DNA from: Syntrophaceae bacterium | Lineage (GTDB): Bacteria; Desulfobacterota; Syntrophia; Syntrophales; Smithellaceae | Direction: 5' to 3' | DNA: 64,000 nt | NCBI GenBank assembly: GCA_009773315.1 | Contig: WRPE01000010.1 | Coordinates: forward strand, 1 to 64,000 | Part shown: piece by piece, positions 10,326 through 32,741 of the stretch | How the letters are laid out: each line of letters begins with the position of its first letter | How positions within the stretch are numbered: the stretch's first letter is position 1 | The notes under the pieces: model-generated | Told to the model about the DNA's origin: nothing | The model's input: the letters and a program-made list of their open reading frames with translations, nothing else | Database searches by the model: none | Made by a program: the position numbers and the translations under genes

Positions 10326-10327
10326 GG

Positions 10328-15511: not shown

Positions 15512-15533
15512 TGCCTCGTGATGAATCGAGGCA
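15512..15533. terminator. Hairpin between convergent genes
   Basis: TGCCTCG (15512-15518) and CGAGGCA (15527-15533) form a 7-bp stem with an 8-nt loop between the convergent peptidase and dehydrogenase genes. T-runs are weak on both strands. Confidence 0.4.
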
Positions 15534-15536
15534 TGA

Positions 15537-16550
15537 TTATTCATTCGGTTTGATAATGACTTTGATCGATTCGCGGCCTTGGGACACCAGACGAAAACCT
15601 TTAACAATATCGGTTAAGGCAAACCGATGCGTGATCAGATCATCCACGACGATTTCGTCCGATTCGATCAGTCTCATTGCTTCGTTAATATCGGGAGGCC
15701 CGCAATAATAAGAAGTGATAATGGTAATTTCCTTCATCCAGAAATCATTAATAGGAACGACAACCTTCTTGTCCGGTCCGGGAACGGCAAACAGGACAAT
15801 CACACCACCCTTATCCACACATCTCCATGCCTGCTCTACTGCTGAATCGGCGGAGGCGCATAAAAATACGATGTCAGCCTTTTTACCATTTTCCACAATC
15901 AACCGCTCTGAAAAATTATCTGCCGCGTTGATGATGATATCGGCCCCCATATGTGCGGCAAATTCCAGTTTTACATGGTTAATGTCGGCGGCTATTACTC
16001 TACATCCTGTTGCCCTGGCCAGCTTCACATGAAGCAGTCCGGCCATCCCGCACCCAATAACCATCACAGACTGACCCTTCTTTACGCAGGCCAGCCTCTG
16101 CGCCCGAACGACGCAGGCCAGAGGTTCAATGAATGTGCTTTGATCATAGGTAATATTTTCAGGCAGTAGATATGTTCCGCGCTCTACAATTATTTCCGGA
16201 ACCAGGATGTATTCGGCAAAACCGCCGGGAAGGCGTTCTTTAATTTCCGTGCATTGGGGGTAGTGACTGTTTTTGCAATAAAAACATTTCATGCAGGGCA
16301 CTTTTGGGGCGATAAATACCCGGTCGCTCAATTTATATTTATTGACGGAATCACCGAGGGCGACAACCTGTGCGCCTATTTCATGACCCTGGACCAGCGG
16401 CGCTCTCGGGAGCCGGTACCATTCGACGATATCACTGCCGCAGATGCCGCAGGACATAACCTTGACCAGCATCTCTTGGGGGCTGGGTACCGGAGTCGGC
16501 ACTTCTTCAATCCGGATATCTTTGTTATTATACCAGTAGGCAACTTTCAT
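15537..16550 (-). CDS. Zinc-dependent medium-chain alcohol/polyol dehydrogenase
   Basis: A 337-residue MDR-family dehydrogenase. Catalytic zinc ligands are in GICGSD (Cys37), GHEIG (His56, Glu57) and FIEPLA (Glu142). A structural zinc site is formed by Cys86, 89, 92 and 100 ([15 protein letters not shown]). The Rossmann motif is [10 protein letters not shown]. The closest general type is sorbitol/threonine dehydrogenase. Its ATG overlaps the end of the lsrF-like gene by 4 bp, so the substrate is probably a hydroxy-ketone or polyol linked to that enzyme's reaction. Confidence 0.9.
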
Positions 16551-17425
16551 TTATTCTTCAAGATGTTATAAAGATCAAAAGCCGCAGCCGGAGTCTCGTT
16601 GTCATGGACGACGGCCCGCACCGCCTGAATCATGGCAATCGGCGCTTCGGACTGAAAAATATTACGTCCCATGTCCACACCGGCGGCGCCCTTCTGAACG
16701 GCATTATAGGCCATGGTCAGGGCGTCAAGTTCCGATATTTTCTTGCCGCCGGCCATCACAATCGGCACAGGGCAGGATGCCGTGACGGTCTCAAAACCTT
16801 CGTCTATATAGTAAGTTTTGATATAGTGAGCGCCAAGCTCAGCGCATATCCTGCAAGCCAGCCGGAAATATTTTGCGTCCCGGGCCATATCCTTGCCTAC
16901 CGCTGTCACCGCAAGGGTGGGAATGCCGTAACGATTGCCGATGTCAACCATCCTGGTCATGTTGATGATTGACTGCCTTTCATATTCGCCGCCGATAAAG
17001 ACCTGAACAGCCATGGCACAGACATTTAAACGGATAGATTCTTCGATATCAACAGCAATATCTTCATTGGACAACTCTTTGAGAATGCTGGCGCCCCCGG
17101 AAACCCGAAGCACCATGGATTGAGACGTGGAGGGTGGTACAACACTGCGGAGAATTCCCCTGGTCAGCATAAGCGTATCCGCGTAAGGTACAAGAGGAAG
17201 AATGTTGATATCGACTCGTTCCAGACCGGTCGTAGGTCCCTGGAAATAACCGTGATCGATGGCCAGCATAACCGTTCGACCGGAGACGGGATTAAATATC
17301 CGCGCCAGTCTGTTTTTCATTCCCCAATCCAGAGAATTTGAACCTTTGAGAAAAAAACCTTGTGTCTGCTGAGGCATATCGCAATGAAACACCTTTGCTT
17401 CCTTGATTCCATCCGCATCCGGCAT
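16547..17425 (-). CDS. lsrF: LsrF-like class I aldolase/thiolase
   Basis: A 292-residue TIM-barrel enzyme of the DhnA/LsrF group. The sequence tracks enterobacterial LsrF from end to end: [39 protein letters not shown]-like [21 protein letters not shown] and [14 protein letters not shown]. LsrF transfers the acetyl group of 3-hydroxy-5-phosphonooxypentane-2,4-dione to CoA in AI-2 breakdown; Lys203 in GAHYIKTYY aligns with its Schiff-base lysine. No lsr transporter, kinase LsrK, LsrG or regulator LsrR is nearby. The overlapping dehydrogenase suggests a different sugar-phosphate or ketone pathway. Confidence 0.85.
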
Positions 17426-17856
17426 CTTTTGTGTTCTCCTTTCCCATCTTGAAGTTTCTTAAGGAAGTATGTTTTTTGTTCTCTCCATTATTTTTCTGTG
17501 GGGGGCGTTGATTTTATTCCTGATTCGTCTTTATAGTTTGATTTTGCGTATACCCATAAATATCAAACCTTGCTCTTTTTTATCTTCCGCCTTGGACTTT
17601 TTTGTTCTTAAAAAACGATGTCGTTGTATATTGTGAAAAGTATCAAATGTCAAATGGTCTCTATGCGCGGATAACGACCTGTACTCAATGATTGACTGAT
17701 TTTAGGAACTATGCGACATTACAATCTATAATGGTTGAAACCAAGCAAGCATATCTGGTATGTGCATGCGATCCATAAAATCAAGATGAGGAACTTTTGG
17801 CCCGTGAACGTGAGCGTCGCAGGACAACTGACGCGTGAGGCAGGGAGGAGCAGACG
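17426..17856. other. Divergent intergenic region
   Basis: A 431-bp gap between the divergent lsrF-like gene and the PAS/HD-GYP gene that must contain both promoters. A TATAAT at about 17730 is the best -10 candidate for the rightward gene, but its -35 is poor. No gene or strong repeat was seen. Confidence 0.4.
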
Positions 17857-19758
17857 ATGGCAGCACACATTACGGTAAAACAACCGGCGGCAACTAAACC
17901 TCTGGGTGAAGAAATGGAATTCTTCAGGCAGTACAATGAAGTGCTGTTTAATAAACTTGAAAAGAAAATGTTGGATCTGGAGGCGGACAATCAGAAGTTG
18001 CGGATATTGGATGAAGAGTTGCGGGCGAGCGAATTCCGCATTAAGTCTATTAGCAATAACCTTCCTGACGGAATGATTTATCAGGTCATTGTTAAGGCCG
18101 ATGGCACAAGAAGATTCACTTATGTTAGCGATTCAGTAAAACAATTGCACGGTGTATCACCTGAAGAAGCCATGGCTGACGCTACTCGAATATACGGCAG
18201 AGTCCATGAAGACGATGTTGCCTTATTCAAGAAAGCTGAAAATGAAGCATTAAAAGCATTATCAACTTTCAAGATGGAAATACGGATGAATGACCCCTCA
18301 GGAGGGATAAGGTGGTCTTCCCTGTCAGCAACACCCATATTAATGGAAGATGGTTCCACATGCTGGGATGGGATTGAGCTTATCATCACCGAACACAAGC
18401 GAGCCGAGGAGGCCCTGCGTGAGAGCGAGGAAAAATACCGCACAATCATTGAGCAAATGGTAGACGGCTATTTTGAGGTTGACCTTGTCGGTAATTACAC
18501 CTTCGTTAATGATGCGGAGAGCAATATTATCGGATATTCCAGAGATGAATGCATCGGAATGAATAACCGGCAGTATCAAGATGAAAAAAACGCTCAAAAA
18601 ACAAATCAAGTGTTCAAAAGGATCTATAAAACTGGTGAACCCATCAAGTCATTAGAGGCTGAAGTTATCAGAAAGAACGGGACAAAAGGTTTTAACGAAG
18701 TTTCGGCATCTCTTATCAAAGATGCCAAAGGCAAGCCGATCGGATTTCGGGGGTTTACCCGGGATGTTACGGGGCGTAAACGGGCGGAGGAACAGCTTCG
18801 ACAGGCTGAAAAAAACTACCGGACCGTTTTTGAGAATGCTCAGGAGGGAATTTACCGGGCAACGCCTGAAGGGAGATTCATCATGGCCAATCAGGCCATG
18901 GCACGAATACTGGGATACGATTCCCCAGAGGAACTGATGGAAGGCATTACCGATATCGCCCATCAAATCTATGTCCATCCCGAAGAACGCAGAAACGCCA
19001 TAAAGTTGATAGAACGGCAGGGCTACGCAAAAAACGATGAACTGCAATGGTACAGGAAGGATGGAAGCAAGATATGGGTATGTCGGACCATGCAGGTGGT
19101 TCTTGATGAGAACGGGCAACCCCTATATGCTGATGGGATTGTTGAAGACATCACGGACCGAAAAGAGAGTGTTGATCGCCTGAGAAAGGCCCTTGGAGGA
19201 ACTGTTCGGGCCATCGCCTCGTTGGTTGAAACGAGAGACCCCTATACAGCGGGCCATCAAAACCGTGTGGCCGATCTTGCTCGTACCATCGCCAGAGAGA
19301 TGGGACTCTCCGGTGAGCGGATAGAAGGTCTCCGTATGGCTGGCATTATCCATGACATTGGAAAAGTCTCCGTTCCTTCTGAGATCCTCAGCACACCAAA
19401 GCGATTGACAGACCTGGAGTTCAGCCTGATTAAAACTCATGCTCAATCCGGATATGATATTCTGAAGGATATTGAATTTCCCTGGCCTGTTGCGCGGATG
19501 GTCCTTGAGCATCATGAACGGATGAACGGGTCCGGGTATCCCAATGGTTTGACCGGAGACAACATTCTCGTGGAGTCCCGGATTCTGTCGGTAGCCGATG
19601 TGGTGGAAGCCATGGCGACACACCGTCCATATCGGTCTTCTTTGGGGCTTGATGCAGCTTTGGAAGAGATTACCAGGAACAAGGGTCTTCTCTATGATAC
19701 GGATGCAGTGGATGCCTGTCTGCGCATTTTCAAAGAGAAGGGTTATAAAATCATTTAG
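17857..19758 (+). CDS. Triple-PAS HD-GYP protein (putative c-di-GMP phosphodiesterase)
   Basis: A 633-residue signalling protein. A short coiled-coil start (25-60) leads to three PAS/PAC units (about 62-185, 195-310, 320-435), each ending in a DIT-type segment (IELIITEHKRAEEAL, FTRDVTGRKRAEEQL, IVEDITDRKES). The C-terminal HD-GYP domain has HD (His499-Asp500), HDIGKVSVP, HHERMNGSGYP (552-562) and LSVADVVEAM; the Asn in place of the usual Asp in HHExxDG is a known variant. No membrane segment or receiver domain is present, so it probably senses a cytoplasmic cue such as redox or a ligand. GGAGG precedes the ATG. Confidence 0.92.
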   Translation: MAAHITVKQPAATKPLGEEMEFFRQYNEVLFNKLEKKMLDLEADNQKLRILDEELRASEFRIKSISNNLPDGMIYQVIVKADGTRRFTYVSDSVKQLHGVSPEEAMADATRIYGRVHEDDVALFKKAENEALKALSTFKMEIRMNDPSGGIRWSSLSATPILMEDGSTCWDGIELIITEHKRAEEALRESEEKYRTIIEQMVDGYFEVDLVGNYTFVNDAESNIIGYSRDECIGMNNRQYQDEKNAQKTNQVFKRIYKTGEPIKSLEAEVIRKNGTKGFNEVSASLIKDAKGKPIGFRGFTRDVTGRKRAEEQLRQAEKNYRTVFENAQEGIYRATPEGRFIMANQAMARILGYDSPEELMEGITDIAHQIYVHPEERRNAIKLIERQGYAKNDELQWYRKDGSKIWVCRTMQVVLDENGQPLYADGIVEDITDRKESVDRLRKALGGTVRAIASLVETRDPYTAGHQNRVADLARTIAREMGLSGERIEGLRMAGIIHDIGKVSVPSEILSTPKRLTDLEFSLIKTHAQSGYDILKDIEFPWPVARMVLEHHERMNGSGYPNGLTGDNILVESRILSVADVVEAMATHRPYRSSLGLDAALEEITRNKGLLYDTDAVDACLRIFKEKGYKII

Positions 19759-20353: not shown

Positions 20354-22528
20354 ATGCCTTATCAAAAGGGGATGGAATCCATGACGACCGAAGTGGAAGC
20401 GAATCGGGGCGATCGAATTGTGACAAGTACCTGCGCCGGCGACTGCGGTGGACGTTGTCCGCTCAAGGTGTATGTACAGGACGGGAAGGTCATGAAGATT
20501 ACAACTGACGACCGGTTCGGTCCGGATCTTCAGGCTTGCGCCCGCGGCCTGATCCAGCGGGATGTCCTCTATGCGCCTGACCGGATCACCGTGCCTTTGA
20601 AGCGGACTGGTCCCCGGGGGAGCGGAAAATTTACGCCGATCAGTTGGGATGAGGCACTGGATACCGTTTCCGAGGCGCTCAAGGAAGCCAAAGAAAAAGA
20701 TGGGCCGCAATCCATTTTCCTCATGGACTACTCCGGTTCGGTAAGCCTGCTGCATGGGACGCAAAAAGCAAGCCGTCGCTTCTTTTCCTTTTTCGGCGGG
20801 TGTACCTCCTGGCGCGGCAATTCGTCCATGGAAGGGGCAGTGTTTTCTTCCAAGGCGACCTTCGGCACAATCTTCACGGGCAACTCGCGCGACAATTTTC
20901 TTTCTTCCCAACTCATCATTCTCTGGGGCTGGAATCCTCTCGATAGCCGCTTCGGTCCGGAGACGGCCGGATACCTGCTGAAGGCGAAGGAGAGAGGCGC
21001 GAAGATTATCTCCGTCGATCCCCGATCAAGCAACTCGGCCGAAAAGCTGGCCGACCAGTGGATCGCCATTAAACCGGGCACGGATGCGGCGCTGATGATT
21101 GCCATGGCTTATGTGTTGATCGCGGAAGATCTGTACGATCGAACATTTATCGAAACGTACACGTCCGGATTTGAGCAATTCAAAGAATATGTGACGGGAG
21201 CGGCGGACAGCATACCCAAGACGCCTGCCTGGGCCGAGGAGATCACGGGCGTGCCCCGGGAATCGATCGAAAGACTCGCCCGTGATTACGCCACGTGCAA
21301 ACCAGCGGCCCTTTGTGCCGGGTGGGCTCCGGGGCGATCCGCATTCGGCGAGCAATACCACCGTGCGGCTGCGACGCTCGCGGCGATGACTGGAAATATC
21401 GGCATCCAGGGCGGCCATGTGTCGGGTGGGACCGACGTCAAAATGGAGGGCTTTCTTTGGGGCTCGCTCGACGTTCCGGGGGGCAAAAACCCCGCCGTGC
21501 ACATCACGGATATCTATAATCTCCTTTTGAAAGGGAAAGCGGGCGGGTATCCGAGTGACATCCGGGTTCTCTACATAGTCGGCTCCAACGTGCTCAACCA
21601 GTTTTTGAATTTAAACAAAGGGATCAAGGCAATGCAAGCTCCGGCGTTTACCGTTATCCATGAACTGTTCATGACTCCCACCGCCCGCTATGCCGATATG
21701 GTGCTGCCAGTGGCGCACTTCATGGAAAGGGAAGACATCGGCCAGCCTTTTGTCGGGGGAACGTATGACATTGTCATGGAGAAGGCGGTGGATGCGTTAG
21801 GCGAAGCCAGAACCGATCTGGCCATCTTCACGGAGCTCGCTGCCCGCCTGGGCCTGGCAGGTTTCAACGACAAGACGGACGAGGGATGGCTTAAGGAGTT
21901 TGTGTCCCAAACGCCTGGGTTGCCTCCCTATGACGTCCTCAGAGACATTAAGTTTCATCGCGTCAACCCCGCCAGGCCTCTGGTGGCTTTTCGCAAGCAG
22001 ATTAAAGATCCCGGGAATAACCCCTTTCCGACGCCGTCCGGGAAGATCGAAATTTTCAGCCAGAAGATTGCCGCGATGAAAAATCCGCTGATTCCGCCGA
22101 TTCCGCAATTCATCGACGCCTGGGATGGACCGCGTGATCCGCTTGCCCGGAAATATCCGCTGCAGCTTGTCAGTCCGCATTCGAAGTTCCGGGTGAATTC
22201 CACGCTTGACAATATCCCGCGTCTTAAAAAAATTGCCGACGATGCAGTATGGCTCAGTCCTCAGGATGCGGAAGTGCGGGGAATCAGAAACGGCGACAAA
22301 GTCAGGATCTATAATGATCGGGGGCAGTTGGTGGTAACCGCAAAAGTCACTGCGCGTATCATGCGGGGTGTGACCAGCCTCGATGCCGGAGCCTGGTATA
22401 AACCTGATGAGACGGGAGTCGATCACGGCGGCTGTGTCAACGTTCTTACCCGGGACGAAAAGACACCGGCCGGCGCCTTCCCGAGTAATACCTGCCTCGT
22501 GCAGATTGAAAAATACGACGGCGCTTGA
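20354..22528 (+). CDS. Molybdopterin-dependent oxidoreductase, DMSO reductase family
   Basis: A 724-residue catalytic subunit. The N-terminal [4Fe-4S] motif is Cys27, Cys31, Cys35 and Cys62 ([11 protein letters not shown] and CARG), the spacing of DmsA-type enzymes. Downstream come molybdopterin-binding blocks such as [35 protein letters not shown] and the C-terminal dinucleotide-binding domain ([26 protein letters not shown]). There is no twin-arginine signal, so it should be cytoplasmic. No electron-transfer or membrane subunit is adjacent. ATG codons at 20372 and 20381 are alternative starts; the last has GGGG nearby. Substrate unknown. Confidence 0.9.
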
Positions 22529-22551
22529 CAATTCTTGGAGACTTCCAGTTC

Positions 22552-22760
22552 AAAGTGCACCACTTTTAGCTAAAGAAAAGATCTCTTATGAAGTCGAATA
22601 TCGTGCTGTATGGTCCGACAAGAGTGTCCATTACATTATTGGTCGAGGCATGTTGGTTCGCGATAAAGCTGGTCGAGCAGCAAAGATCAATGGTGTTATC
22701 TGGGATATTACCAATCAACCGGATTCTGATAAATCTTATAGCACGTCTTTGGACGAATAA
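22552..22760 (+). pseudogene. PAS-domain gene remnant
   Basis: One frame encodes the end of a PAS/PAC domain: ISYEVEYRAVWSDKSVHYII, GRGMLVRDKAGRAAKINGVI and WDIT, then runs into the direct repeat and stops at 22760. There is no start codon or upstream part. It seems to be the leftover of a sensor gene at the edge of the integrated element. Confidence 0.6.
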
Positions 22761-22845
22761 CAAGAAAAAACCCGCTGTATATGCGGGTTTTGTGGACTTC
22801 TTAGGATGTTGTTGGATGATGACTTGGCGATGAGAGACTCGAACT
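22721..22845. repeat. Left attachment-site direct repeat (distal)
   Basis: The first 70 bp are identical to 32561-32630; the rest differs at a few positions and lacks 4 bp (TGGG) present at 32668-32671. Its right part, CGATGAGAGACTCGAACT, equals the 3' end of the tRNA-Arg gene. It includes a copy of the tRNA terminator (22765-22790). Confidence 0.85.
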
Positions 22846-23266
22846 ACACACATAAGATATTGTTATTATTACAAAAAATTATAGTGCGATTTCTCACGTA
22901 CCCCCAAATATGCCCCCAAACTTTCAAAACATTGGTCTTTTTTCGGCATACATATAATCTTTCGGACGAATGCCGTCAATAAAAAAGGCGGATGTTCCCG
23001 CACCCGCCCTAAAGGCGCTATTGATCTGAAGTTGTTCAATCCCCCAGCCCCCCTTAATAGAACCGGCACGGCAAAAAAATTGCCTGTTTTTGAATGAATA
23101 TGATCATCCACCTAAATAAAGCGCGGGTCCTTCCCGGCGATCCGGGCGATACGGGTAATTCAAGCCCCCTACTTCGTGCGCGCAAAAATCTAATTTGAGA
23201 TAAGACAATAAGACAATGTACTTTTTCACCATTATGTTCATCATTTTGAGAATATAAAAAAACGCT
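22846..23266. other. Left-end non-coding part of the element
   Basis: No convincing gene is present. Two spaced CCCCCAAA repeats (22901-22908, 22913-22920 region) next to a GTACCCC lie about 55 bp inside the left repeat and could be integrase arm sites. The remainder shows terminator hairpins for the leftward genes. Confidence 0.4.
22981..23008 (-). terminator. Intrinsic terminator of the leftward element operon
   Basis: On the minus strand a GGCGG/CCGCC stem (23008-23004 with 22991-22987) is followed by six Ts. A weaker ACGCT/AGCGT hairpin with a T-run (23262-23274) overlaps the stop codon of the last gene. Confidence 0.5.
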
Positions 23267-23893
23267 TTAAGCGTCTGTCCCGCTCGCCTGTGGGGTGTCT
23301 GCCTCAATAATGACTTCATATTCTTTGTTGCTTGCATATTGGTTGAGGAATGTATCAAGGTCGATACTCATCATGTTGATTAATTCGCCTGTTTTTTTAT
23401 AGTTGCCGTCAGTGGAAGCAATCCAGATTGCTGAATTCGATGTAATCCAATGCTTCAATCCAGCAATCAGGATACCGGCGCGCATGGCTAGCTCTATTTC
23501 CATCTTATCTTTGGGCACGTGGAAGCCCCGATCTTTTTCATAGTTGAATTTATCACGTTCGTTTTTTAATCGTAGGTTTTTCAGTTCCTCTTCTAATTTT
23601 TGCCGCTGAAGATTGTCCGATGTTTCCTGAAGGCGTTTCCCAGTGGCGGCCAGCTTCAAAAAGGTGCGGGCATAACGATCAACCGCCTTTTGCTTATATG
23701 CCCCGCTTGTTTCTGGAAGCAATTTTCCTTCTTTGCCGTGCCGGTATAAACTTGGCCGTGTAATGCGCCATCTCTGGGTTTCAAGATACCTCAAAACATC
23801 GGCCAGATTATCAAAATTCAGTTCCCCGCCCACTTGATTGTTTTCAGCCTGCAGCGGTTTTTCTGTTGTGATCTGATCTTCGTTTTTATTCAT
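23267..23893 (-). CDS. Nu1/TerS-like small terminase candidate
   Basis: A 208-residue protein. The ATG at 23893 is preferred over upstream ATGs because AAGGGG lies 6-7 nt before it; it overlaps the previous stop by 8 bp. Residues 29-82 are a winged-helix unit (LRYLETQRWRITRPSLYRHG, then GKLL and DRYARTFLKL). A coiled coil follows (90-120, KLEEELKNLRLKNERDKF), then DRGFHVPKDKMEIELAMRAG. The wHTH plus coiled coil plus G-x-x-VP-x-(D/E) arrangement is that of phage Nu1/TerS DNA-packaging proteins. It is the last gene of the element operon, the usual place for terS in PICI satellites. The family call is by pattern only. Confidence 0.55.
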   Translation of the reverse strand: MNKNEDQITTEKPLQAENNQVGGELNFDNLADVLRYLETQRWRITRPSLYRHGKEGKLLPETSGAYKQKAVDRYARTFLKLAATGKRLQETSDNLQRQKLEEELKNLRLKNERDKFNYEKDRGFHVPKDKMEIELAMRAGILIAGLKHWITSNSAIWIASTDGNYKKTGELINMMSIDLDTFLNQYASNKEYEVIIEADTPQASGTDA

Positions 23894-24527
23894 TGGTTGC
23901 CCCTTGCTCTTGTGCATATTGAAGCTTGAAATATTTTCGGCTTTCATCGGCCAAGAATGTTTTGAGTTCTTCGGCCTTGGATGTGTCGCCGGAAAGGAAA
24001 GTAATTATTCCCGCCGCCCTGTCGCGGAGAAACTTTTCAATAGCAGTCTGGAAAAGACGTGCCATATCATCAGAAGATGAATTAATGACATCAAGGCATT
24101 TCAGATATTTTCGGGCATACTTTTCAATGGCGATAATATCAAAGCGGTCTGCAAAGTTTCGTTTTATTTTCCGTTCTTTAATATGACGGTATAGCGTAAT
24201 CCGTGGAGCAAGCCAGCCCCTTGAGGCCAGATAAAGGCCCACACCTTTAATGTCTGCAAAGCTGTTTTCTGTATCAATCAAACCCGCTTCATGATCATTG
24301 GTTTCCGCCTTTTTATTATTTGTGGGCAAATTCAGTCGTTTCAAATTTCTTTTTGCATAAAGGTCAACCGCGTGGACCTCAAAAACGCCTTCTTTGTTGT
24401 GCCGCAACCTACCTTCTTTGATGTGCCGATATATCGAAGTTGACGAAACCCGCCAGCCTTGAAATGTTAGATGTGTAATAACGCCCTTTGCATCCATAAT
24501 GATTGCCCGCGTCTTTTCCTCATTCAT
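23886..24527 (-). CDS. Tandem winged-helix DNA-binding protein
   Basis: A 213-residue protein with two copies of the same domain found in the neighbouring 208-residue protein: residues 15-65 (FQGWRVSSTSIYRHIKEGRL and AVDLYAKRNLKRL) and 95-145 (SRGWLAPRITLYRHIKERKI and AIEKYARKYLKCL). The rest (150-213) is helical and polar with no known motif. The repeated LYRH-KE-(K/R)-(I/L) core resembles Nu1/MerR-type recognition helices. It may be a regulator or a second packaging-site binder. GGAG lies 10 nt before the ATG. Confidence 0.6.
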   Translation of the reverse strand: MNEEKTRAIIMDAKGVITHLTFQGWRVSSTSIYRHIKEGRLRHNKEGVFEVHAVDLYAKRNLKRLNLPTNNKKAETNDHEAGLIDTENSFADIKGVGLYLASRGWLAPRITLYRHIKERKIKRNFADRFDIIAIEKYARKYLKCLDVINSSSDDMARLFQTAIEKFLRDRAAGIITFLSGDTSKAEELKTFLADESRKYFKLQYAQEQGATNE

Positions 24528-24557
24528 TTTGTGTTATCTCCATAATTCTTTATTTGG

Positions 24558-25574
24558 TTATTCCGATAGTCCCGCTTCGATCCATGCCCGGATATTCAAA
24601 CCGCGTTGCCAGGCGTCCGATGGGTCTTTCCCGATGGGCACCGGCCAGCGGATGAGCTTTTGGCCGTATGTTTCCGGCCAGAATTTCCAGGCGTAACGAG
24701 CGCCCGCTTCGTCATAGTCCAGCCCGTTTAAAATCTTTTCTGATTTCAATAAGAGTTCATGCGCCGAAATATCCGGTTTCATGCCCGCTGCTCCCATCGC
24801 CATAGCGCTGGTTAAATCCCCTGCTTCTTGCCAGCAAAGGAAGGCGTCAAGTTCGCTTTCCACGATGACAAAAACATTTTTTTCAGATTCTAGAATCAGC
24901 GGCGCAAGGTTTGAACCTGCAATAATCACATAGCGCGGGCCTTCGCCGGGATCGTGCCGTCTAATCCGCAAGCGCGCCGGGCCTTCATGATCTTGTTGGG
25001 GGATAACCAGCCCCGCCGGAATCCACAAGAGCTTCGGTTTTCCGTCGCTTCTGATTTCCTGGGGAAGCCCCCAGCCCCGCCGGTCCCGGTAAAGCTCTGT
25101 CGGATTGAACCCGATCCCAGCCCGGCGGATCGTTTCTTCCGTCAAACCTTTACTTAAAAGAACATCCAGCGCCGCCTGGCCGCCGGGTGTCCAAAGGTTT
25201 GATTGTGAGGCCTTCAGGATCGTTTCGGCTTTTTGCATCCATAGCGCCGGCGGCGCGTCATATTTCTTTGGTCTGAAGCCCGGATTTTCCGATATCGGCC
25301 TTGACCGTTTCCGTCTGTATCCGGCTTTTGAAATGCCCAGCGCCCGGCAAGCGTCGGCAAAAGAAATTCCCCGTGTGTCCCTCATGTATTGGATTGCATC
25401 GCCGGTTTTTTCGCAGCCCCGGCACCAATACCGCCCGCCTTTGTCTTCCGGCCAGATAAGAAACCGATCATTCCCGCCGCAAAACGGACACGGCCCGGCA
25501 TATTCTCCGCCATGTGTGGCGGCAACTCTTTTAAAGGTGAATCCGTCCCCGGTGATCAATTCCAGGACATTCAT
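24558..25574 (-). CDS. CHC2 zinc-finger/TOPRIM primase
   Basis: A 338-residue DnaG-type primase of mobile elements. The zinc ribbon uses Cys29, 32, 51 and 54 (CPFCGG and CRGCEKTGDAIQYM). A Toprim_N-like region (LLSKGLTEETIRRAGIGFNP) precedes the TOPRIM core VIVESELDAFLC, GLDYDEAGARYAW and KDPSDAW, which supplies the acidic metal-binding residues. The start is the ATG at 25574, which overlaps the stop of the upstream 116-residue gene by 4 bp (ATGA). With the DUF927 ATPase across the origin-like region it would form the element's replication initiation set. Confidence 0.85.
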   Translation of the reverse strand: MNVLELITGDGFTFKRVAATHGGEYAGPCPFCGGNDRFLIWPEDKGGRYWCRGCEKTGDAIQYMRDTRGISFADACRALGISKAGYRRKRSRPISENPGFRPKKYDAPPALWMQKAETILKASQSNLWTPGGQAALDVLLSKGLTEETIRRAGIGFNPTELYRDRRGWGLPQEIRSDGKPKLLWIPAGLVIPQQDHEGPARLRIRRHDPGEGPRYVIIAGSNLAPLILESEKNVFVIVESELDAFLCWQEAGDLTSAMAMGAAGMKPDISAHELLLKSEKILNGLDYDEAGARYAWKFWPETYGQKLIRWPVPIGKDPSDAWQRGLNIRAWIEAGLSE

Positions 25575-25921
25575 TTTTTTAATCCCTCGAACAGTGACGC
25601 CATGACCGGTGGCACCGGTGCTTTCCTGGCCGCTGCGCTCCAGTGTGTGCAAGCGACCCGCAGCGCCTCAAAATCCCGCCCGCCGTCTAATATTGCTTTG
25701 TATGTCCGGTTGACCGTTATTTCCGCCGCCTGGGTTTCCTGGGTGAAGTGGAAAACCCCACCCTTGATGATCTCATCACGGGCACCAAAAAGAATCTCAT
25801 CCGCTTCTTTTTCGCCCGGAAGGTAATCTTTAGGCGCCGCGCCGACCGGTTCAAGTTGCACTTCGCTTTCTGTTCCGCTTTGAGCGGGTTTGATGTCATC
25901 GATCCAAGTTTTAAGGGCCAT
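25571..25921 (-). CDS. Small hypothetical protein of the element
   Basis: A 116-residue acidic-to-neutral protein; I do not recognise it. The middle (EADEILFGARDEIIKGGVFH, then AEITVNRTYKAIL) looks helical. It is translationally coupled to the primase (ATGA overlap) and lies directly left of the repeat-rich origin candidate, so a replication accessory role is plausible. AAGG lies 9 nt before the ATG. Confidence 0.6.
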   Translation of the reverse strand: MALKTWIDDIKPAQSGTESEVQLEPVGAAPKDYLPGEKEADEILFGARDEIIKGGVFHFTQETQAAEITVNRTYKAILDGGRDFEALRVACTHWSAAARKAPVPPVMASLFEGLKK

Positions 25922-26243
25922 TGATCACAACCTTTTTGTTTCCCCTACTGCACAATGAAAAAACCTACAGGGGGGGTATGTTTCAAAATGGGGTTACTGG
26001 GTTACTATTGATTTAATTATTTAATAATGTTCATAAAACACAGTAACCGCTTTTAATTTTCGTGGTTCTGTTATGGGGTACCGTAATGATTAACGATTAT
26101 CCAAAAGTAACCTAGTAACCTTTAGAGTAACCACAAAAAGTATTATGGGGTTACTGTGTTTGAATAATAATATTAATATCTTGTTTAAATAGTACCCTAC
26201 AGAACCCCTTTTAAAAGGGACCCCCCCTTTTATATATTTTTCA
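25922..26243. other. Putative replication origin with iteron-like repeats
   Basis: A 322-bp AT-rich non-coding region between the DUF927 ATPase and primase operon genes. It holds seven exact copies of GGTTACT or its complement: 25992-25998, 26000-26006, 26042-26048 (c), 26106-26112 (c), 26114-26120 (c), 26126-26132 (c), 26149-26155. The inner pair at 26036-26048 and 26149-26161 forms a 13-bp inverted repeat (AAACACAGTAACC / GGTTACTGTGTTT). Iterated sites plus AT-rich DNA next to a replication ATPase and primase is the layout of satellite and plasmid origins. Confidence 0.6.
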
Positions 26244-28172
26244 TTAAATATCTTTGTTTGTTTCTTCCTCTTCTGTGTCTGACAGTTTAAGTACGCCGCA
26301 TTGACGAAGAACATCAGCGTCAATGACCTTCAGGACATGCTTTTTGATATTATTGATTGAAGCCTTGATCCCTGTTTTTCCGTCATTCTTGGTCTGAATG
26401 ATTTTCCTGTTCTTCAGCATTGACCAAAAGGTGTCTTTTGAAAAAGGGAAATGAATGTCTGAATCACGACAATATTTTCTTACGGCCCTGTCAATCACTT
26501 CAGGCATTAAAAGCATATATGCGTTTTCGGGATTATCATTGTTATACCAGCCGATAAGTTCACCCGTGCCAATCGTTGAAAGTTCTCTGTGTGGGTGCCG
26601 ATCTAAACGGGCCTGACCTAATGTAATGAGTGTCGATAGAATATTAAAGAACAAAGCCACCGGATCATCGGCGCTGATTCGTTGTTGCTGCCTTGCTGCA
26701 AGCTTTCGGAATATTTCCCAACCTTCGGAAACGAGCGCCGCGCCGGCGTCATTTGACAGCACGCCTTTTTCATTAAAAAAAGATGTTGCCGTTTCCAGGG
26801 CGAAACCCATGAATGCCGCTTGCTCTGGTAATTTCTTATGAAATCCTTCAGTGGCCGCGCGTTCACGGAGTTCACGGAAACGCGCCGGAAAGGTTTCTCT
26901 GATTTCTGCCATGTTGTCACGTATCCAGGCAATATAAGAAGACATGGCGTAAGGTAAGGAAGCAGCGTCTTTCTGGATTGCTGTCAACTTGTTCCGATCA
27001 ATCGCGCCTTCGGTCACTTCGATAATACAGACGCGGGCCAGTGTGCTTTCAAGTGTTGGCTGTTCTTCAGCGGTCATGACCATCATGCCGCGCGGCTCAT
27101 ACCGCCCTTTTTCTGTTAAATCGCTATTTAACCGGCCCCGTGCCGTGCGGTTTGAATAGGCTCGGATCATCGCTTGTGCTATAGCTTCTTTGCTTTCGCT
27201 AGCCTTCCGGTTTGAACTGGGGTGATAGTCGTCCAAAACCTGAAGACTGTCCTTTAGTTTGAAGCCCCTAACCTCCAACATTCCTTTTGTATCCTCAAAA
27301 TTAGATAATCCATCAACCCCGGTGAAATTACCATAATGGGCAATGGCCAGAATCGCTATCGTTGTTTTGAATGTGCCGGATTGCCCGAATATGTATTGAC
27401 TGAAGTTAGGCATTGGATTTAAAATCGTAGTGAGCGGCGCAAGAAATACCATGCACCAAAGGGGCATTGTCACGGCTCGGTTTCCGATGTCTAAAAAACT
27501 TAAAGATGTCTGAAGTCCTTTTTTTTCGTTGTCCCGAAAAAGATTCGCGCTTTCTGTTTGAGTAAGGGGGAAAGGGGGGAGAGTATAGCGCTCAAGCTCT
27601 TTTGTTAATCTGACCGATACGTTTTCGGCGCAACCGATAGCGCCGCCTGCGTGAAGGTAACACCATTGACCATTGATTAAACGCCAGCCTAAATGACCAT
27701 AATGTGTTGAAACCGGCGCGTCCGGTGAAGCCTTTTGTACAGCATGGCGTATGAAGTCACGAATAGTTTGACCTGGCTCAAGGCAACAACGTGAACCCCA
27801 CTTTGAAACCCACGTTAAGCCCTGAAATTTATCCGCCGGTATTTCGATTTTTTGCAGGGGAATTTTGTCGAAAAGTTTTCCTTCAATCGTGAAAAGGTGC
27901 TGGCTGTCCTGGCCGTCATCAATGATGTTTTCTTCAGTGATTCGGGCGCTGAAATTGCACAAGGGTACGGTAACTTCACCGCCTTCTTTTGTGTATTTCG
28001 TCCGGCAAAGATAGCCGCCTTTAATGAAATAGGGTGATTTATCTTTGCCGTCATCCTGTTTGTTCTTTTCCTGCCCGGAGTATTCCTGCTTTTCCTTATC
28101 GGCGCGGGCTTTGACTTGGGCTTTGATATCATCGGGTTTAGAGAGTTTGTCTTTGTGTTTTTCGGTTTTCAT
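26244..28172 (-). CDS. DUF927-family replication ATPase/helicase
   Basis: A 642-residue protein. The N-terminal 45 residues are lysine/glutamate-rich and disordered. The DUF927 core (about 100-450) has GLTWVSKWGSRCCLEPGQTI, HYGHLGWR, Walker A FGQSGTFKTT (262-271) and Walker B SLQVLDDYH (309-317). DUF927 proteins are typical of P4-like and PICI-like elements, where they occupy the place of the replicative helicase. It sits upstream of the iteron-like region. The C-terminal 150 residues contain IGWYNNDNPENAYMLLMPEV and a possible winged helix. No strong ribosome site precedes the ATG. Confidence 0.8.
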   Translation of the reverse strand: MKTEKHKDKLSKPDDIKAQVKARADKEKQEYSGQEKNKQDDGKDKSPYFIKGGYLCRTKYTKEGGEVTVPLCNFSARITEENIIDDGQDSQHLFTIEGKLFDKIPLQKIEIPADKFQGLTWVSKWGSRCCLEPGQTIRDFIRHAVQKASPDAPVSTHYGHLGWRLINGQWCYLHAGGAIGCAENVSVRLTKELERYTLPPFPLTQTESANLFRDNEKKGLQTSLSFLDIGNRAVTMPLWCMVFLAPLTTILNPMPNFSQYIFGQSGTFKTTIAILAIAHYGNFTGVDGLSNFEDTKGMLEVRGFKLKDSLQVLDDYHPSSNRKASESKEAIAQAMIRAYSNRTARGRLNSDLTEKGRYEPRGMMVMTAEEQPTLESTLARVCIIEVTEGAIDRNKLTAIQKDAASLPYAMSSYIAWIRDNMAEIRETFPARFRELRERAATEGFHKKLPEQAAFMGFALETATSFFNEKGVLSNDAGAALVSEGWEIFRKLAARQQQRISADDPVALFFNILSTLITLGQARLDRHPHRELSTIGTGELIGWYNNDNPENAYMLLMPEVIDRAVRKYCRDSDIHFPFSKDTFWSMLKNRKIIQTKNDGKTGIKASINNIKKHVLKVIDADVLRQCGVLKLSDTEEEETNKDI

Positions 28173-28392
28173 TTTCAGCAGTTCCGAGCGCGACGAATAA
28201 TTTGCAAAATTAAAATTCAGATAAAAAATGTAATGGTCTATTTAATGTCAAGGTCATCGCCCGTTCCAAAAATCTTTTCATCTATATTTCAATAAAGGCT
28301 CGCGCCGGTGCGGGCGTGCTGGCCGGCGCAAGCCAAGCCGTCAGGGAAGAAAGTGAGACCTGACGGGTGATCGCGGATCAACGCTTCGTGGA
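28173..28392. other. Non-coding spacer in the element
   Basis: A GC-rich patch with imperfect dyads (CGCGCCGGTGCGGGCGTGCT region and GTCAGG..CCTGAC, 28338-28363) follows the 203-residue gene. It could form a terminator or a structured leader of the DUF927 gene. Confidence 0.35.
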
Positions 28393-29004
28393 CTAAACCA
28401 GGCCGCGAAGAACAAAAGGTATGGAAAGATCGATCGGTGCATTTTTAAAACTAAAACAGATAGGATCACGTGATAAAGCCGCAGTGCGATAGTAGATTCC
28501 GATCCCCTCAAGCATCGCGTCATTGAACTGTGTTTCAAAATCTTTAACCAGCATTTTGACCTGATCAAAAAGCGCGTCAATTTCTTGCTGCCGCTTCGAA
28601 TGGTGTGAAATAACGATTGCACCAATAATTCCGCTGAGAAAGGCACCTTTTTTGCGCATCTCTTCTTTCGCCTTTGGCAAGAAGTGATTTTCAATACTTT
28701 TTATAATTTCTTCGTTCTCAAGGATTTCTTCTTGAATTTTACGGTGTGCTTTGATCCTTTCAGCAACTCCCTCCACACACATGACCTCTTGTGCAGGAAG
28801 TTCCAAGCTCTCCCGTAATAGGTGGTTTTTATTTGTATAGTCACGAATTTTCTTTTGAAAATCCGCATCATTATAAAGTGATGCTATATATTCCTGAATT
28901 GCTGATGCATGCTCTTCCTTGAGTTGTTTCACAAGCGCATCCTTGATTGAATTTGTACCAATTTCCTCTTGTGCCGTTTTACTTTCTTCGTTTTTGTCTT
29001 TCAT
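28393..29004 (-). CDS. Hypothetical helical protein of the element
   Basis: A 203-residue protein, not recognised. The sequence is largely charged helix (IKDALVKQLKEEHASAIQEY, then IQEEILENEEIIKSIENHFL) with a hydrophobic GAFLSGIIGAIVIS segment near 122-135 that might insert in a membrane. AAGGAG with 7-nt spacing selects the ATG at 29004 rather than the one at 29010. It lies between alpA and the DUF927 gene. Confidence 0.6.
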   Translation of the reverse strand: MKDKNEESKTAQEEIGTNSIKDALVKQLKEEHASAIQEYIASLYNDADFQKKIRDYTNKNHLLRESLELPAQEVMCVEGVAERIKAHRKIQEEILENEEIIKSIENHFLPKAKEEMRKKGAFLSGIIGAIVISHHSKRQQEIDALFDQVKMLVKDFETQFNDAMLEGIGIYYRTAALSRDPICFSFKNAPIDLSIPFVLRGLV

Positions 29005-29022
29005 GATCATTCTCCTTTTCTT

Positions 29023-29217
29023 TTATTTTTTTTTACCTTTACTAAGGTCATCCGCTAATTTCAATATATCCGACCGTTTCCAGGCCGTCGTTCGTGGTCC
29101 TAGTTTTACCGATGCCGGGTATTCTAATTTTTTCACGCCCGCCCACCACTTACTTTTAGAGACGGGGATAATTTCCAAAACCTGCGGCAACCTCAAAAAC
29201 CCTATTTGATTATCCAT
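29023..29217 (-). CDS. alpA: AlpA-family excisionase/transcriptional regulator
   Basis: A 64-residue protein of the AlpA/MerR-like winged-helix class: GFLRLPQVLEIIPVSKSKWW, then GVKKLEYPASVKLGPRTTAW and KRSDI. AlpA proteins activate integrase or island genes in P4-like elements and often serve as excisionases. GGAGG lies just upstream of the ATG. Two hairpins occupy the 109-bp gap before it. Confidence 0.88.
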   Translation of the reverse strand: MDNQIGFLRLPQVLEIIPVSKSKWWAGVKKLEYPASVKLGPRTTAWKRSDILKLADDLSKGKKK

Positions 29218-29249
29218 AGAACCTCCGAAAACATTAATTACACACTAAA

Positions 29250-29335
29250 GAGCCGTAATCTCCATCACTGGATGATTACGGCTCAAGCTAGACCAATATA
29301 GACATTACGTAAACCCGAGTAAGTACTTACTCGGG
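29250..29335. promoter_or_regulatory. Two inverted repeats upstream of alpA
   Basis: GAGCCGTAATC (29250-29260) pairs with GATTACGGCTC (29274-29284). A second, gap-free 22-bp palindrome (29314-29335, half CCCGAGTAAGT) spans the stop codon of the 355-residue gene and has T-runs on its plus-strand side. They may be a terminator plus an operator controlling alpA. Confidence 0.5.
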
Positions 29336-30394
29336 AATTTTTATTTTCTTTGCTTCCGTGAGATTTGCCAGGAATTGTTTTTCTGTATTAGTTTTCGTGG
29401 TGTTATGTTTTTTTGTTGATAAGGTGCGCTGAATAAACTTTTCTAAATCTAGATCATAATAGACTTTGTAATTCTTGCCTTCATAGCTGATATCCATTGC
29501 TTTATCTTCGCCAGTGTGATTTTTTTCAAAATACTTGACTATCTTCCTGCCGCCGGTGCTTTTTATTTGCTTTATCGCTTTTGCCTGCGCCACACGGAAT
29601 CCAGCTGTCTTTTCATGTTTACCTCCTGAACTTTTTTCTTGCTTCGATTTCGCTACCTCGTTGGTTAGCTGATCTTTCTCCTCAGCCCATTCAAAATATT
29701 CCGATGCTTTTAAAAGATTTTCGGCTTTATCAATAAAAGGCGATAAACCATTTATGTCCTCTTGTGTCCACTTATTATGAAAAATCAAAGATGTGAGAAC
29801 AAGCCAAGCTTCTAAAATTGCATAGAGCGCGAACAAGTGATGGCGTTTGAGTTCAAAAGGATATGAGGTAATTTCCTCTGCATAGATTAATAAAGATTCC
29901 AAGCCCCCTGGCGCCTTAAGAACATCGACATTTTCAAGTAAATTACTGGCTAATGTATTATAAGGGGTGTTTCGAATTGGCCCGTGCTTAAGATCATGTA
30001 TGCTTGATCTGAAAAGATTATAGTATGTATCAGCAATATGATGATTTGCTGTTTTTAATGCCAGATAATCAAGATTCTGAAATAATATTCTTACCGCCTT
30101 ACATGCCTCGCCATAATCGTGATAAATAAATAATAGTTCTTTTACATCAGGCAAACGGGCATACTGAACCTGGTAATTATCAAACGCACCAAGACGCCAA
30201 CGTGCGGCAAGTATAATATTTATGCAGTTGCGCGCTGTTGATTCGGCCAGATCGTTATTATTAAGATGCGTTTCTTCGATTTCCGGCAAATCCCCAAATA
30301 GTGGACACCAATCAAGCGGATGCTCGTAAACTTTATCATAATCAGTTTTTTCGTGACGGAGTTTTAACCTTGCGGGTATTTTGCTTTTATCCAT
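29327..30394 (-). CDS. Hypothetical protein of the element
   Basis: A 355-residue AT-rich gene, not recognised. The ATG at 30394 has AGAGGA 7 nt upstream; a longer frame from 30436 lacks one. Predicted mostly helical: NCINIILAARWRLGAFDNYQ, a HHLFALYAILEAWLVLTSLI hydrophobic helix (about 200-220), then a charged linker with KSKQEKSSGGKHEK and a basic C-terminus rich in lysine. Position between RadC and AlpA suggests an accessory (cargo) gene. Confidence 0.6.
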   Translation of the reverse strand: MDKSKIPARLKLRHEKTDYDKVYEHPLDWCPLFGDLPEIEETHLNNNDLAESTARNCINIILAARWRLGAFDNYQVQYARLPDVKELLFIYHDYGEACKAVRILFQNLDYLALKTANHHIADTYYNLFRSSIHDLKHGPIRNTPYNTLASNLLENVDVLKAPGGLESLLIYAEEITSYPFELKRHHLFALYAILEAWLVLTSLIFHNKWTQEDINGLSPFIDKAENLLKASEYFEWAEEKDQLTNEVAKSKQEKSSGGKHEKTAGFRVAQAKAIKQIKSTGGRKIVKYFEKNHTGEDKAMDISYEGKNYKVYYDLDLEKFIQRTLSTKKHNTTKTNTEKQFLANLTEAKKIKIPE

Positions 30395-30513
30395 TTGCCT
30401 ATCCTCTCGCGGCGTCCCTTGATTAAACCGGGGCAACGGGAAGGGATTCTCCCGCTTTCGGCTGGCCGGCCTAGCCCCGTATCTTCAATTACTCAACCTA
30501 TGATAAGCTGAAA

Positions 30514-31230
30514 TCATATCAGTTCATCATCTTCAAGTGATTTATACCGGTCGCCAGCAATCAATATATGATCGTGTACTTTGACGCCCATTAGTGAGGC
30601 CGCAAACTTAACTTCACTGGTGAATCGCTTGTCTTCTGGTGAAAATACTAACTGACCGCTTGGGTGATTGTGTGTTAGGATAATAGCCGTTGAGGCTGAC
30701 AAAATACTATCTTTTATTATTTCTCTTATGTAGCAATTTACTTTATTGATTGTTCCTGGAAAGACTTGCAGACAATTTAAAATATTTGCGTTATTTAGGT
30801 GTAAGATTATTAATTGTTCCACATCCCTGTCATGGAGAGTTCGGGCGAAGGCAAACACTGTACCAGGGGAATCAAATTTTTCTCGCCTATACGGGAAAGT
30901 TGGCTCTTCGACAAGACGAACATCTAAGCGAACCGCACTTTTAACGTCTGGAGTATCGATAGGCGTTTTAAATATTTTCCGTTTTGCTTTATACGTGACA
31001 GGCTTTCGACTGTTTAGGCTTCTGTTTTGTGGTTGCGCGATCATAGGTGTTCCCACGTCTGAATATTTATCATCCAGCGGAAATAATATTTTCTCAATGC
31101 TGTCAAGATTATTTGACACATTTCTGTTATTTAACAGAAGCTTATTGTGTTTTTCTTTCATCTCATCCAGCTCGGCCAACATTCCATCTAATTTCATTAT
31201 GATTGATTGCCGCTCGATTTCCGTTATCAT
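30514..31230 (-). CDS. RadC-like JAB-domain protein with N-terminal coiled coil
   Basis: A 238-residue protein. Residues 1-50 form a probable coiled coil (LDGMLAELDEMKEKHNKLLL). The C-terminal 125 residues are a RadC/JAB domain with the metal-site motif THNHPSG (His187, His189) and SPEDKRFT (Asp200). RadC-like proteins recur beside integrases on genomic islands; their activity is unclear. It lacks the helix-hairpin-helix region of chromosomal RadC. The gene is 22 bp downstream of the integrase. Confidence 0.85.
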   Translation of the reverse strand: MITEIERQSIIMKLDGMLAELDEMKEKHNKLLLNNRNVSNNLDSIEKILFPLDDKYSDVGTPMIAQPQNRSLNSRKPVTYKAKRKIFKTPIDTPDVKSAVRLDVRLVEEPTFPYRREKFDSPGTVFAFARTLHDRDVEQLIILHLNNANILNCLQVFPGTINKVNCYIREIIKDSILSASTAIILTHNHPSGQLVFSPEDKRFTSEVKFAASLMGVKVHDHILIAGDRYKSLEDDELI

Positions 31231-31252
31231 TTTACTTTGCCCCCCTTATTTT

Positions 31253-32482
31253 TCAGCCATTTATCTTTTTGAACGGTATCACTTTTGCCCCGGCCTTCAA
31301 TCCCGCCAGATAGTCCGCCCATGTTTGCATCATGCGCCGCCGTTCGTTTAGGTGCTGTGTCCGATTGTAAGCGCGTCCCAGTGGATCTCTGACAGCATGG
31401 GCAAGCTGATGTTCAATAAGATCGGGCCGGACTTGCAGCACTTCGTCAAGTATTGTTCGCGCCATTGCCCGGAAACCATGCCCGGACATTTCAGTTTTTT
31501 CAAAACCCATGTTCCGCAATGCCGCTAGAATTGCATTGTCGCTCATTGGACGTGCGGAAGTTCGCCCAGGGAATACATACCGGCCTTTACCTGTTAGTTT
31601 TTTAAGTTCCGTTAATATTTCGATTGCCTGTTTTGATAGTGGTACAAGGTGCGGTACTTTCATTTTCATTTTTTCAGCCGGAATATTCCATTCAGCTTTT
31701 TCAAAATCTATTTCTGACCATTCAGCGTGTCGGAGTTCGCCCGGACGAACGAAGGTGAGGGGGGCAAACTTCAAAGCGGATTGAACAACAAAGCTGCCCC
31801 GATAGCTGTCTATCGCTCTGAGTAGTTCACCGGCTTTAACCGGATCGGTAATAGCAGCCCTGTTAATGGTTTTCACCGGCGTCAATGCCCCGCGTAAATC
31901 GGCTGAAGGATCACGGTCAGCACGTCCTGATGCAACTGCATAGCGGAATATTTGACCGCTTATGCCTCTAATAATATGCGCCGTGTGCATTATCCCTCTT
32001 GATTCTAATCGGCGTAATACGCCCAGCAGTTCAGGAGCTTTGATCTCCGCGATTGGCCTTTTTCCAAGATGAGGGAACACGTCACGTTCTAATCTGCTTA
32101 AGACTCTTTCGTAATGGCTTTTTTTCCAGGTGGTCATAAATTTATTATGCCATTCTCTGGCTATTACCTCGAAGGTTTCAGTTTCTTGAATATTGGCTTG
32201 CTTCTGAGCCTTTCGCACCGCGCCGGGGTCAATACCATTGGCAAGTAACTTCCGGGCATCCTCGCGCCGTTTTCGAGCGTCCAGAAGACTTATTTCCGGG
32301 TATGACCCCAAAGCAAGTTTCTTTTCCTGTTTGTCGAAGCGGTATTTAAAACGCCATAGCTTTCCGCCGGTAGATGTAACCAGAAGATATAAGCCCCCAC
32401 CATCAAATAATGAAACTGGTTTGCCTTGTGGTTTGGCTTTTAGAACTTTTATGTCTGTCAGTGGAATGATTCGTTTCGGCAT
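31253..32482 (-). CDS. int: P4-type tyrosine recombinase (integrase)
   Basis: A 409-residue site-specific recombinase. An N-terminal DUF4102 arm-binding domain (LYLLVTSTGGKLWRFKYRFD, LGSYPEISL) is followed by a SAM-like core-binding domain (105-195). The catalytic domain has Arg246 (FVRPGELRHAEW), the HGFR box (His335, Arg338), His362 and nucleophile Tyr372 (RAYNR). Such enzymes insert islands at tRNA 3' ends. The start has GGGAGG 7 nt upstream. Three GGGTACC sites lie just before it. Confidence 0.96.
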   Translation of the reverse strand: MPKRIIPLTDIKVLKAKPQGKPVSLFDGGGLYLLVTSTGGKLWRFKYRFDKQEKKLALGSYPEISLLDARKRREDARKLLANGIDPGAVRKAQKQANIQETETFEVIAREWHNKFMTTWKKSHYERVLSRLERDVFPHLGKRPIAEIKAPELLGVLRRLESRGIMHTAHIIRGISGQIFRYAVASGRADRDPSADLRGALTPVKTINRAAITDPVKAGELLRAIDSYRGSFVVQSALKFAPLTFVRPGELRHAEWSEIDFEKAEWNIPAEKMKMKVPHLVPLSKQAIEILTELKKLTGKGRYVFPGRTSARPMSDNAILAALRNMGFEKTEMSGHGFRAMARTILDEVLQVRPDLIEHQLAHAVRDPLGRAYNRTQHLNERRRMMQTWADYLAGLKAGAKVIPFKKING

Positions 32483-32502
32483 TGTGAGGCCTCCCTTATT
32501 TT

Positions 32503-32550
32503 GGGTACCCGCGAAACTCTATGGGTACCTTTGTTGTAAAATTGGGTACC
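32503..32550. promoter_or_regulatory. Three phased GGGTACC sites upstream of int
   Basis: GGGTACC occurs at 32503-32509, 32523-32529 and 32544-32550, spaced 20 and 21 bp, i.e. about two helical turns, between the int start and the right repeat. This phasing fits cooperative binding by integrase arms or the AlpA regulator. Confidence 0.55.
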
Positions 32551-32560
32551 TAAAACAACT

Positions 32561-32689
32561 GGATTCTGATAAATCTTATAGCACGTCTTTGGACGAATAA
32601 CAAGAAAAAACCCGCTGTATATGCGGGTTTCGTGGACTTCTTTGGATGTTGTCGGATTATGACTTGGTGGGCGATGAGAGACTCGAACT
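32561..32689. repeat. Right attachment-site direct repeat (tRNA-proximal)
   Basis: The counterpart of 22721-22845, overlapping the 3' 25 bases of the tRNA-Arg gene (32665-32689) and its downstream terminator. Left and right copies are offset by exactly 9,840 bp at their starts. Confidence 0.85.
32605..32630 (-). terminator. Terminator of tRNA-Arg
   Basis: On the minus strand AACCCGC/GCGGGTT with a 7-nt loop is followed by a T-run. An identical copy occurs in the left repeat at 22765-22790. Confidence 0.75.
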
Positions 32690-32741
32690 CTCGGCCTATG
32701 GCTTCGGAGGCCAGCGCTCTATCCATCTGAGCTAATCGCCC
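32665..32741 (-). tRNA. tRNA-Arg (anticodon CCG)
   Basis: A 77-nt cloverleaf including encoded CCA. Acceptor GGGCGAT pairs with ATCGCCC, D stem GCTC/GAGC, T arm GAGAG-TTCGAGT-CTCTC. The anticodon loop CTCCGAA (anticodon at 32705-32707) reads CGG codons. The outermost anticodon-stem pair (27-43) is a C-T mismatch; the other four pairs hold. It is the integration site of the adjacent element. Confidence 0.93.

Follow-up and report, generated by a model that had tools for sequence, protein, structure and literature searches.

A PICI-like element with its own terS and a candidate cos site at tRNA-Arg in a Syntrophaceae bacterium: a probable phage satellite

Phage-inducible chromosomal islands (PICIs), which have been described from Firmicutes and Gammaproteobacteria, are elements of about 10-15 kb composed of an integrase, a regulator, a replication module, an origin and optionally terS, free of phage structural or lytic genes, in which the origin lies immediately 3' of rep and consists of iteron sets flanking AT-rich DNA (PMC6092414). 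PICIs that have no terS and use a helper-type cos are also known (PMC6092414), and Gram-negative PICIs often possess capsid genes, which are dispensable for their transfer (PMC10111431). Further criteria are an attachment site that prophages never use, genes exclusive to PICIs, and helper-dependent induction, packaging into particles and interference (PMC6092414). As judged from its sequence, the element analyzed herein, which lies within a 64-kb stretch of Syntrophaceae contig WRPE01000010.1 (hereafter the window), exhibits most of the features by which PICIs are recognized. It is 9,844 bp long, shows the PICI organization with terS as the last gene, as the first-pass annotation had proposed, carries an iteron-flanked AT-rich origin 3' of rep, has all of its ten genes on the minus strand in keeping with the unidirectional transcription of the Gram-negative PICI lineage, contains no phage structural or lytic genes, and would owe its packaging specificity to terS together with a lambda-type cos core. 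Neither prophage genes (TerL, portal, capsid, tail, lysis) nor the relaxase of an integrative mobilizable element nor the capsid gene set that a cf-PICI possesses was detected by Pfam and PHROGs, and instead of the fis target and DUF3987/DUF5906 primase of PICMIs, the element employs a tRNA-Arg target and a CHC2/toprim primase. We thus consider it highly probable that the element is a functional-looking, cos-type, PICI-like satellite moved by phage packaging.

With the Gram-negative PICIs, including EcCICFT073 (PMC6092414; PMC10111431), the element shares the order of integrase, AlpA and replication zone, the unidirectional genes, the iteron origin 3' of the replication gene, the putative cos-type core with divergent cosB, the tRNA target with a damaged displaced fragment and, among its relatives, the occasional capture of capsid genes. 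It differs from them, however, in its host lineage, in the DUF927/SaPIBov1-kind Rep adjacent to a CHC2/toprim primase, in the double winged-helix gene preceding terS and, as compared with the terS-less EcCICFT073, in possessing its own terS in addition to a cos-like site. Like SaPIs such as SaPIBov1, it has the Rep fold, the origin directly 3' of rep, the iterons flanking AT-rich DNA and a late terS, whereas the presence of AlpA, the lambda-type cos core in place of pac and the DnaG-type rather than AEP primase set it apart, and no Stl-type divergent repressor pair was seen. The predicted cosQ-cosN core and its spacing were in good agreement with those of lambda, N15 and phi80, and related phages encode the same TerS/GpA terminase families; unlike these phages, the element lacks TerL and virion genes, and its site is oriented differently from that of lambda relative to terS. 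PICMI, cf-PICI and P4-like satellites (PMC10803314) are likewise small integrative elements with an integrase, AlpA-like regulators and a primase, and some relatives of the window element possess a capsid gene as cf-PICIs do; no capsid gene and no P4 alpha-type primase-helicase was detected in the window element itself. The features of the element are summarized in Table 1.

Table 1. Features of the element and its attachment site in window coordinates.
Feature	Position	Strand	Remarks
Distal attachment repeat	22713..22845	.	Displaced tRNA-Arg 3' fragment (22826-22845), its acceptor end short of 4 nt, and host-like downstream DNA
Candidate cos site	23116..23218	+	cosQ-like core 23124-23134; cosN-like ACGGG region about 23150-23166; AT-rich spacer
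terS, terminase small subunit, Nu1-type	23267..23947	-	MerR-like winged helix and helices; homologues beside TerL
Double winged-helix protein	23886..24527	-	Related to the TerS DNA-binding domain; precedes terS
CHC2/toprim primase	24558..25652	-	Pfam; likely start about 25574
Small conserved protein between origin and primase	25571..25921	-	Kept in most relatives
Predicted replication origin, AT-rich, directly 3' of rep	25985..26230	.	Seven AGTAACC iterons in both orientations, about 25992-26155
rep, replication initiator helicase, SaPIBov1 Rep/SCCmec Cch (DUF927) kind	26244..28172	-	Predicted fold
Coiled-coil-like protein	28393..29010	-	Variable slot between alpA and rep
alpA, regulator/excisionase	29023..29217	-	PF05930, 2.6e-7
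Protein between alpA and radC	29327..30436	-	No family assigned
int-alpA RNA (RF02996)	30416..30481	-	37.1 bits, gathering 35.8
RadC-like JAB domain protein	30514..31230	-	Pfam
Tyrosine integrase	31253..32482	-	Pfam PF13356/PF22022/PF00589
Proximal attachment repeat, element-borne	32553..32689	.	Includes the replaced tRNA 3' end
Intact tRNA-Arg(CCG), integration target	32665..32741	-	

The presence of a 9.8-kb element at tRNA-Arg, as first proposed, was borne out by direct repeats spaced 9,840-9,844 bp apart and by an empty site in the same genus. A 115-bp direct repeat (22713-22827 and 32553-32667, 95% identity) is continued by the 20-bp tRNA 3' end in two identical copies, the second at 32670-32689. 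In the same-genus genome G070 (locus L129), the element is absent and the flanks are cleanly joined without any insert, the order being the left-hand gene (96.6% identical), the left flank (94%), a single copy of the repeat corresponding to the distal one (91%), the tRNA (97%) and the right-hand gene. The four acceptor-end bases missing from the displaced tRNA fragment of the window are present in this empty site; in the study set of PMC10111431, such damage was found in PICIs only and not in prophages. A search for the same cassette at this tRNA, which had been suggested at the outset, was fruitful, since a related integrase lies directly beside the same tRNA-Arg in the same-genus genome G066 (L130) and the metagenomic relative L027 shares both the tRNA-Arg target and the neighbouring gene. 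The relatives L023 and L063 adjoin tRNA-Ala. No prophage was seen at the attachment site in 20 same-genus genomes, whose contigs often end there. A short open frame with a PAS-like tail (22383-22760), located just outside the distal repeat, predates the insertion, because the same DNA occurs at 94% identity in the empty-site genome.

The integrase, AlpA and primase assignments of the first-pass annotation were corroborated by Pfam matches. Its statement that capsid, tail and transfer genes are lacking also held, as neither Pfam nor PHROGs detected any capsid, tail, lysis or relaxase family in the element or a coupling protein within the window, and PADLOC found no defence genes. The int-alpA RNA, which had not been recognized in that annotation, occurs in L023 as well. 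The coiled-coil-like protein and the protein between alpA and radC gave no significant match to PDB sequences, and a DNA search returned no close phage or plasmid record. In the proposed mechanism, Int would integrate the element into the 3' end of tRNA-Arg, and Int together with AlpA would excise it.

The rep product (642 aa) had been called a DUF927 ATPase, a label that failed by HMM (11.2 bits, E 0.295, not significant, with no significant Pfam match) and was upheld in kind by the predicted fold. A structure search of the PDB with the Rep model, which is of moderate confidence (pLDDT 61), gave the SaPIBov1 replication initiator 8tch as the top match (E 8.4e-6), and upon realignment the model matched SCCmec Cch (Z 10.1 over 353 residues), SaPIBov1 Rep (Z 8.7 over 290) and, through its C-terminal part, the TcpK winged helix (Z 8.6), with every other row at Z <=4.9. 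The model thus supports a Rep fold of the SaPIBov1/SCCmec kind, and it is this fold that the element has in common with SCCmec, whose replication module encodes the DUF927 protein Cch. SCC elements, which employ Ccr serine recombinases, are not known to carry TerS. As DUF927 is part of Cch, itself a relative of SaPIBovI Rep (PMC7581432), the fold match indicates that the DUF927 label was right in kind. The Rep family was found mainly in satellite-like loci, apart from one occurrence beside TerL in L091, and phage or plasmid records gave just two distant Rep matches, in faecal virus contigs.

The iteron-like origin noticed earlier withstood statistical testing: AGTAACC occurs seven times in 382 bp, a number reached in none of 1000 dinucleotide shuffles, and has no further copy in the 64-kb window. 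An iteron origin was found directly 3' of rep in 11 elements (that of the window and ten relatives), each with its own iteron word, among them CAGTAAC (x11), CTGTTAC (x10), GTGGAAC (x12) and CCGTGAC (x9); the shuffle test gave 0/1000 in 8 of these 11, the excess being weaker in L029, L022 and L016. Rep would bind its own iterons and, with the primase, replicate the circular form. Both rep and the primase gene were revealed to be under purifying selection, the Rep comparison leaving out L029, whose Rep stands at 69% in a separate alignment. Apart from the iterons, most relatives also keep a C-run block (CATACCCCCCCTGTAGGTTTTTT-like, 26190-26225), located where the origin ends on the side of the primase.

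The terS-like last gene proved to be a genuine TerS gene as judged by homology. By itself it matched PHROG_57 (terminase small subunit) only weakly (E 0.0057), whereas homologues in the same position gave 2e-13, 1e-13, 9e-9 and 9e-6. The call is firm because homologues precede GpA-type TerL in relatives: in prophages of the same order (L059, L060, L063 and L187; phmmer 1e-50, 6e-56, 2e-61 and 1e-47, respectively), the terS homologue is located directly upstream of a GpA-type TerL gene, and portal and capsid genes follow where the contig continues. The TerS of L063 is 47% identical to that of the window, and comparison with L020 indicated purifying selection (dN 0.18, dS 1.33). The structure prediction that had been proposed as a check was in part affirmative. 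In the TerS model, which was predicted with moderate confidence (pLDDT 71), long helices come after a winged helix resembling that of MerR (Z 7.3, rmsd 1.6 over 54 residues); a match of the whole fold to a solved TerS was not obtained, Foldseek alone giving nothing significant, and tblastn of TerS against the phage collection gave no match. The preceding gene, here assigned to a second, double winged-helix protein, accompanies the TerS type of the window in satellites, was not seen in the prophages examined, and may have a role together with TerS.

A block of approximately 100 nt beyond terS is kept in all six complete relatives as judged by DNA comparison. On the plus strand of the window, CGGGTCCTTCC is separated by about 16 bases from ACGGG, after which come AT-rich spacer DNA and two tandem copies of an 8-bp repeat, ATAAGACA x2 at 23200-23215, in the position where the R-sites of cosB would be expected. 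When the entire host genome was searched with a sequence-only model of this site, the copy of the window was the single significant match, and outside its training set the model matched phages, prophages and elements (L177, L178, L179, L180, L181, L182, L183, L091, L059, L063, L064, L022 and L097). In lambda, N15 and phi80, the genome-wide best match of a 14-column core matrix coincided with cos, that of phi80 lying within the annotated cosQ, and the distance from the core to the cosN ACGGG was almost unchanged; in HK97, a control whose TerL belongs to another family, the best match was not at cos. A 33-nt word of the window had its best ungapped match to lambda at cos (23/33 bases, one above the next match). 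In phages, the repeat side of the site faces the helicase-primase-terS-terL genes, and L183 has the order cos-terS-terL as in lambda. The repeat is TGTCTTAT-like in elements with the TerS type of the window and TTCCAG-like in those with the other type (L018, L027), a pairing broken by L024, whose site copy lies elsewhere in the element. Because the core and its spacing match and the repeats vary by element, we infer that the site most likely represents a cosQ-cosN core with an element-specific cosB. This cos-like site beside terS is new here. An RNA structure at the site was rejected (consensus energy -0.27, no Rfam family at that place), and a primase-recognition site was weakened as a candidate since the site occurs in phages with TerS/TerL and another primase.

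Relatives with the same rep-origin-primase core were collected from IMG/VR (L017/L028, L018, L019/L027, L020 and L029/L089) and from genomes of the order (L021-L024); some of them are metagenome contigs that are short or may be chimeric, most notably L027. The sequences indicate that parts are exchanged among them, the core genes being common and the integrase, the TerS type and the captured late genes differing. Thus, L018 is 71%, 82% and 26% identical to the window in Rep, primase and TerS, respectively, and L020 is 61%, 66% and 73% identical, while the integrases of L022 and L029 differ from that of the window. The first-pass annotation had stated that the satellite idea would fail if the last gene was unrelated to TerS in fold and related elements always carried capsid or relaxase genes. 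Both checks favoured the satellite idea: the last gene is a TerS gene by the homology described above, and neither a relaxase nor a full structural gene set was found in the related elements, although some have taken up individual late genes. Between integrase and rep, L029 (3351-4520) and L024 (1-303) each have an isolated major capsid gene of the HK97 type (PF05065 in L029), without portal or TerL, which possibly serves capsid interference or size control. In L027 (17.5 kb), the stretch between alpA and rep (6620-13693) encodes a head protease of the S49 family, a tail protein resembling lambda J and a tape-measure protein, reflecting either real late-gene capture or a chimeric contig. S49 also accompanies TerL in L063, where an element of about 12 kb (6543-18406) comprises integrase, AlpA, S49 protease, SF3 helicase, primase, TerS and TerL, and no portal or capsid was seen. 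Two compact IMG/VR elements of about 8 kb (L092, L093) resemble a further group of satellites: both have a helicase-like gene, a primase gene, what may be a short terS and a capsid gene akin to the one in L029, and L092 has an integrase as well. A MAG labelled Lentisphaeria, another phylum, contains pieces of the satellite family to which the window element belongs (L015, L016), probably through mis-binning because the contigs are short.

The empty site, the modelled Rep fold with its origin, the cosQ-cosN match by terS and the damaged tRNA fragment all speak for the satellite idea of the first-pass annotation. The setting for satellite packaging would be an active temperate helper with a lambda-type (GpA) terminase, which would presumably induce the element; the satellite TerS would recognize the tandem repeats beside its own cos site and recruit the helper TerL, which would cut the conserved cosQ-cosN core and bring satellite DNA into helper particles. 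As no GpA-type TerL was found in the host genome, that genome holds no recognizable helper prophage. The same locus could alternatively be the left part, from int to terS, of a decaying prophage that has lost TerL and the late genes and become immobile, and prophages with the order primase-TerS-TerL-portal-capsid do exist in the same bacterial order, L091 even combining the same Rep, primase and TerS with a following TerL. Such decay appears very unlikely, however, considering that all frames are open, that exact attachment repeats and an empty site are present, that several relatives with different integrases and target tRNAs end alike after terS and the conserved site, that purifying selection acts on rep, primase and terS, and that the prophages found have an SF3 helicase in place of the window-type Rep.

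The site beyond terS might instead serve regulation or replication in all of these elements, such as by binding the primase or a repressor, and the satellite might be packaged otherwise. Many prophages of the group have the site just upstream of the helicase gene, kilobases away from terS, and L021 and L022 have it although no terS was detected in them. We nevertheless regard this as unlikely, since the site occurs in TerS/TerL phages without the window-type primase (L177, L180, L183), has no RNA structure and agrees with the cos of lambda, N15 and phi80 in core and ACGGG spacing; moreover, terS-less PICIs using helper-type cos are known, as noted above (PMC6092414). As for an integrative mobilizable element moved by conjugation, the Cch-like Rep, RadC and the TcpK-like C-terminal winged helix do occur in conjugation-related or cassette elements as well; that reading is nonetheless extremely improbable, because Pfam and PHROGs revealed no relaxase or coupling protein in the window or among the scanned proteins of a relative, and it leaves terS and the cos-like site unexplained.

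A satellite moved by phage packaging would extend PICI-like elements with readable parts to a bacterial order for which a search of the open-access literature brought up no satellite and no paper treating phage satellites together with Deltaproteobacteria or Desulfobacterota. The chances appear evenly balanced that the elements constitute a distinct cos-type satellite lineage in this order, bridging Gram-positive and Gram-negative PICIs by combining a SaPI-type Rep and origin with AlpA/int-alpA control, and carrying a swappable packaging cassette composed of TerS, its double winged-helix partner and cosB-like repeats matched to them, which adjoins a cosQ-cosN core that does not vary. If this is true, exchange of the cassette would allow an element to switch helper while remaining readable by any GpA-type TerL. 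The parts appear separable, in that the origin iterons have diverged in each element, and in that TerS and the repeats next to the constant cos core change in concert; this separation of core and cassette would provide a testable model of how satellites change helpers. Since terS alone is too divergent to be found easily, the cos signature may serve as a handle with which satellites and their helper phages can be sought in metagenomes.
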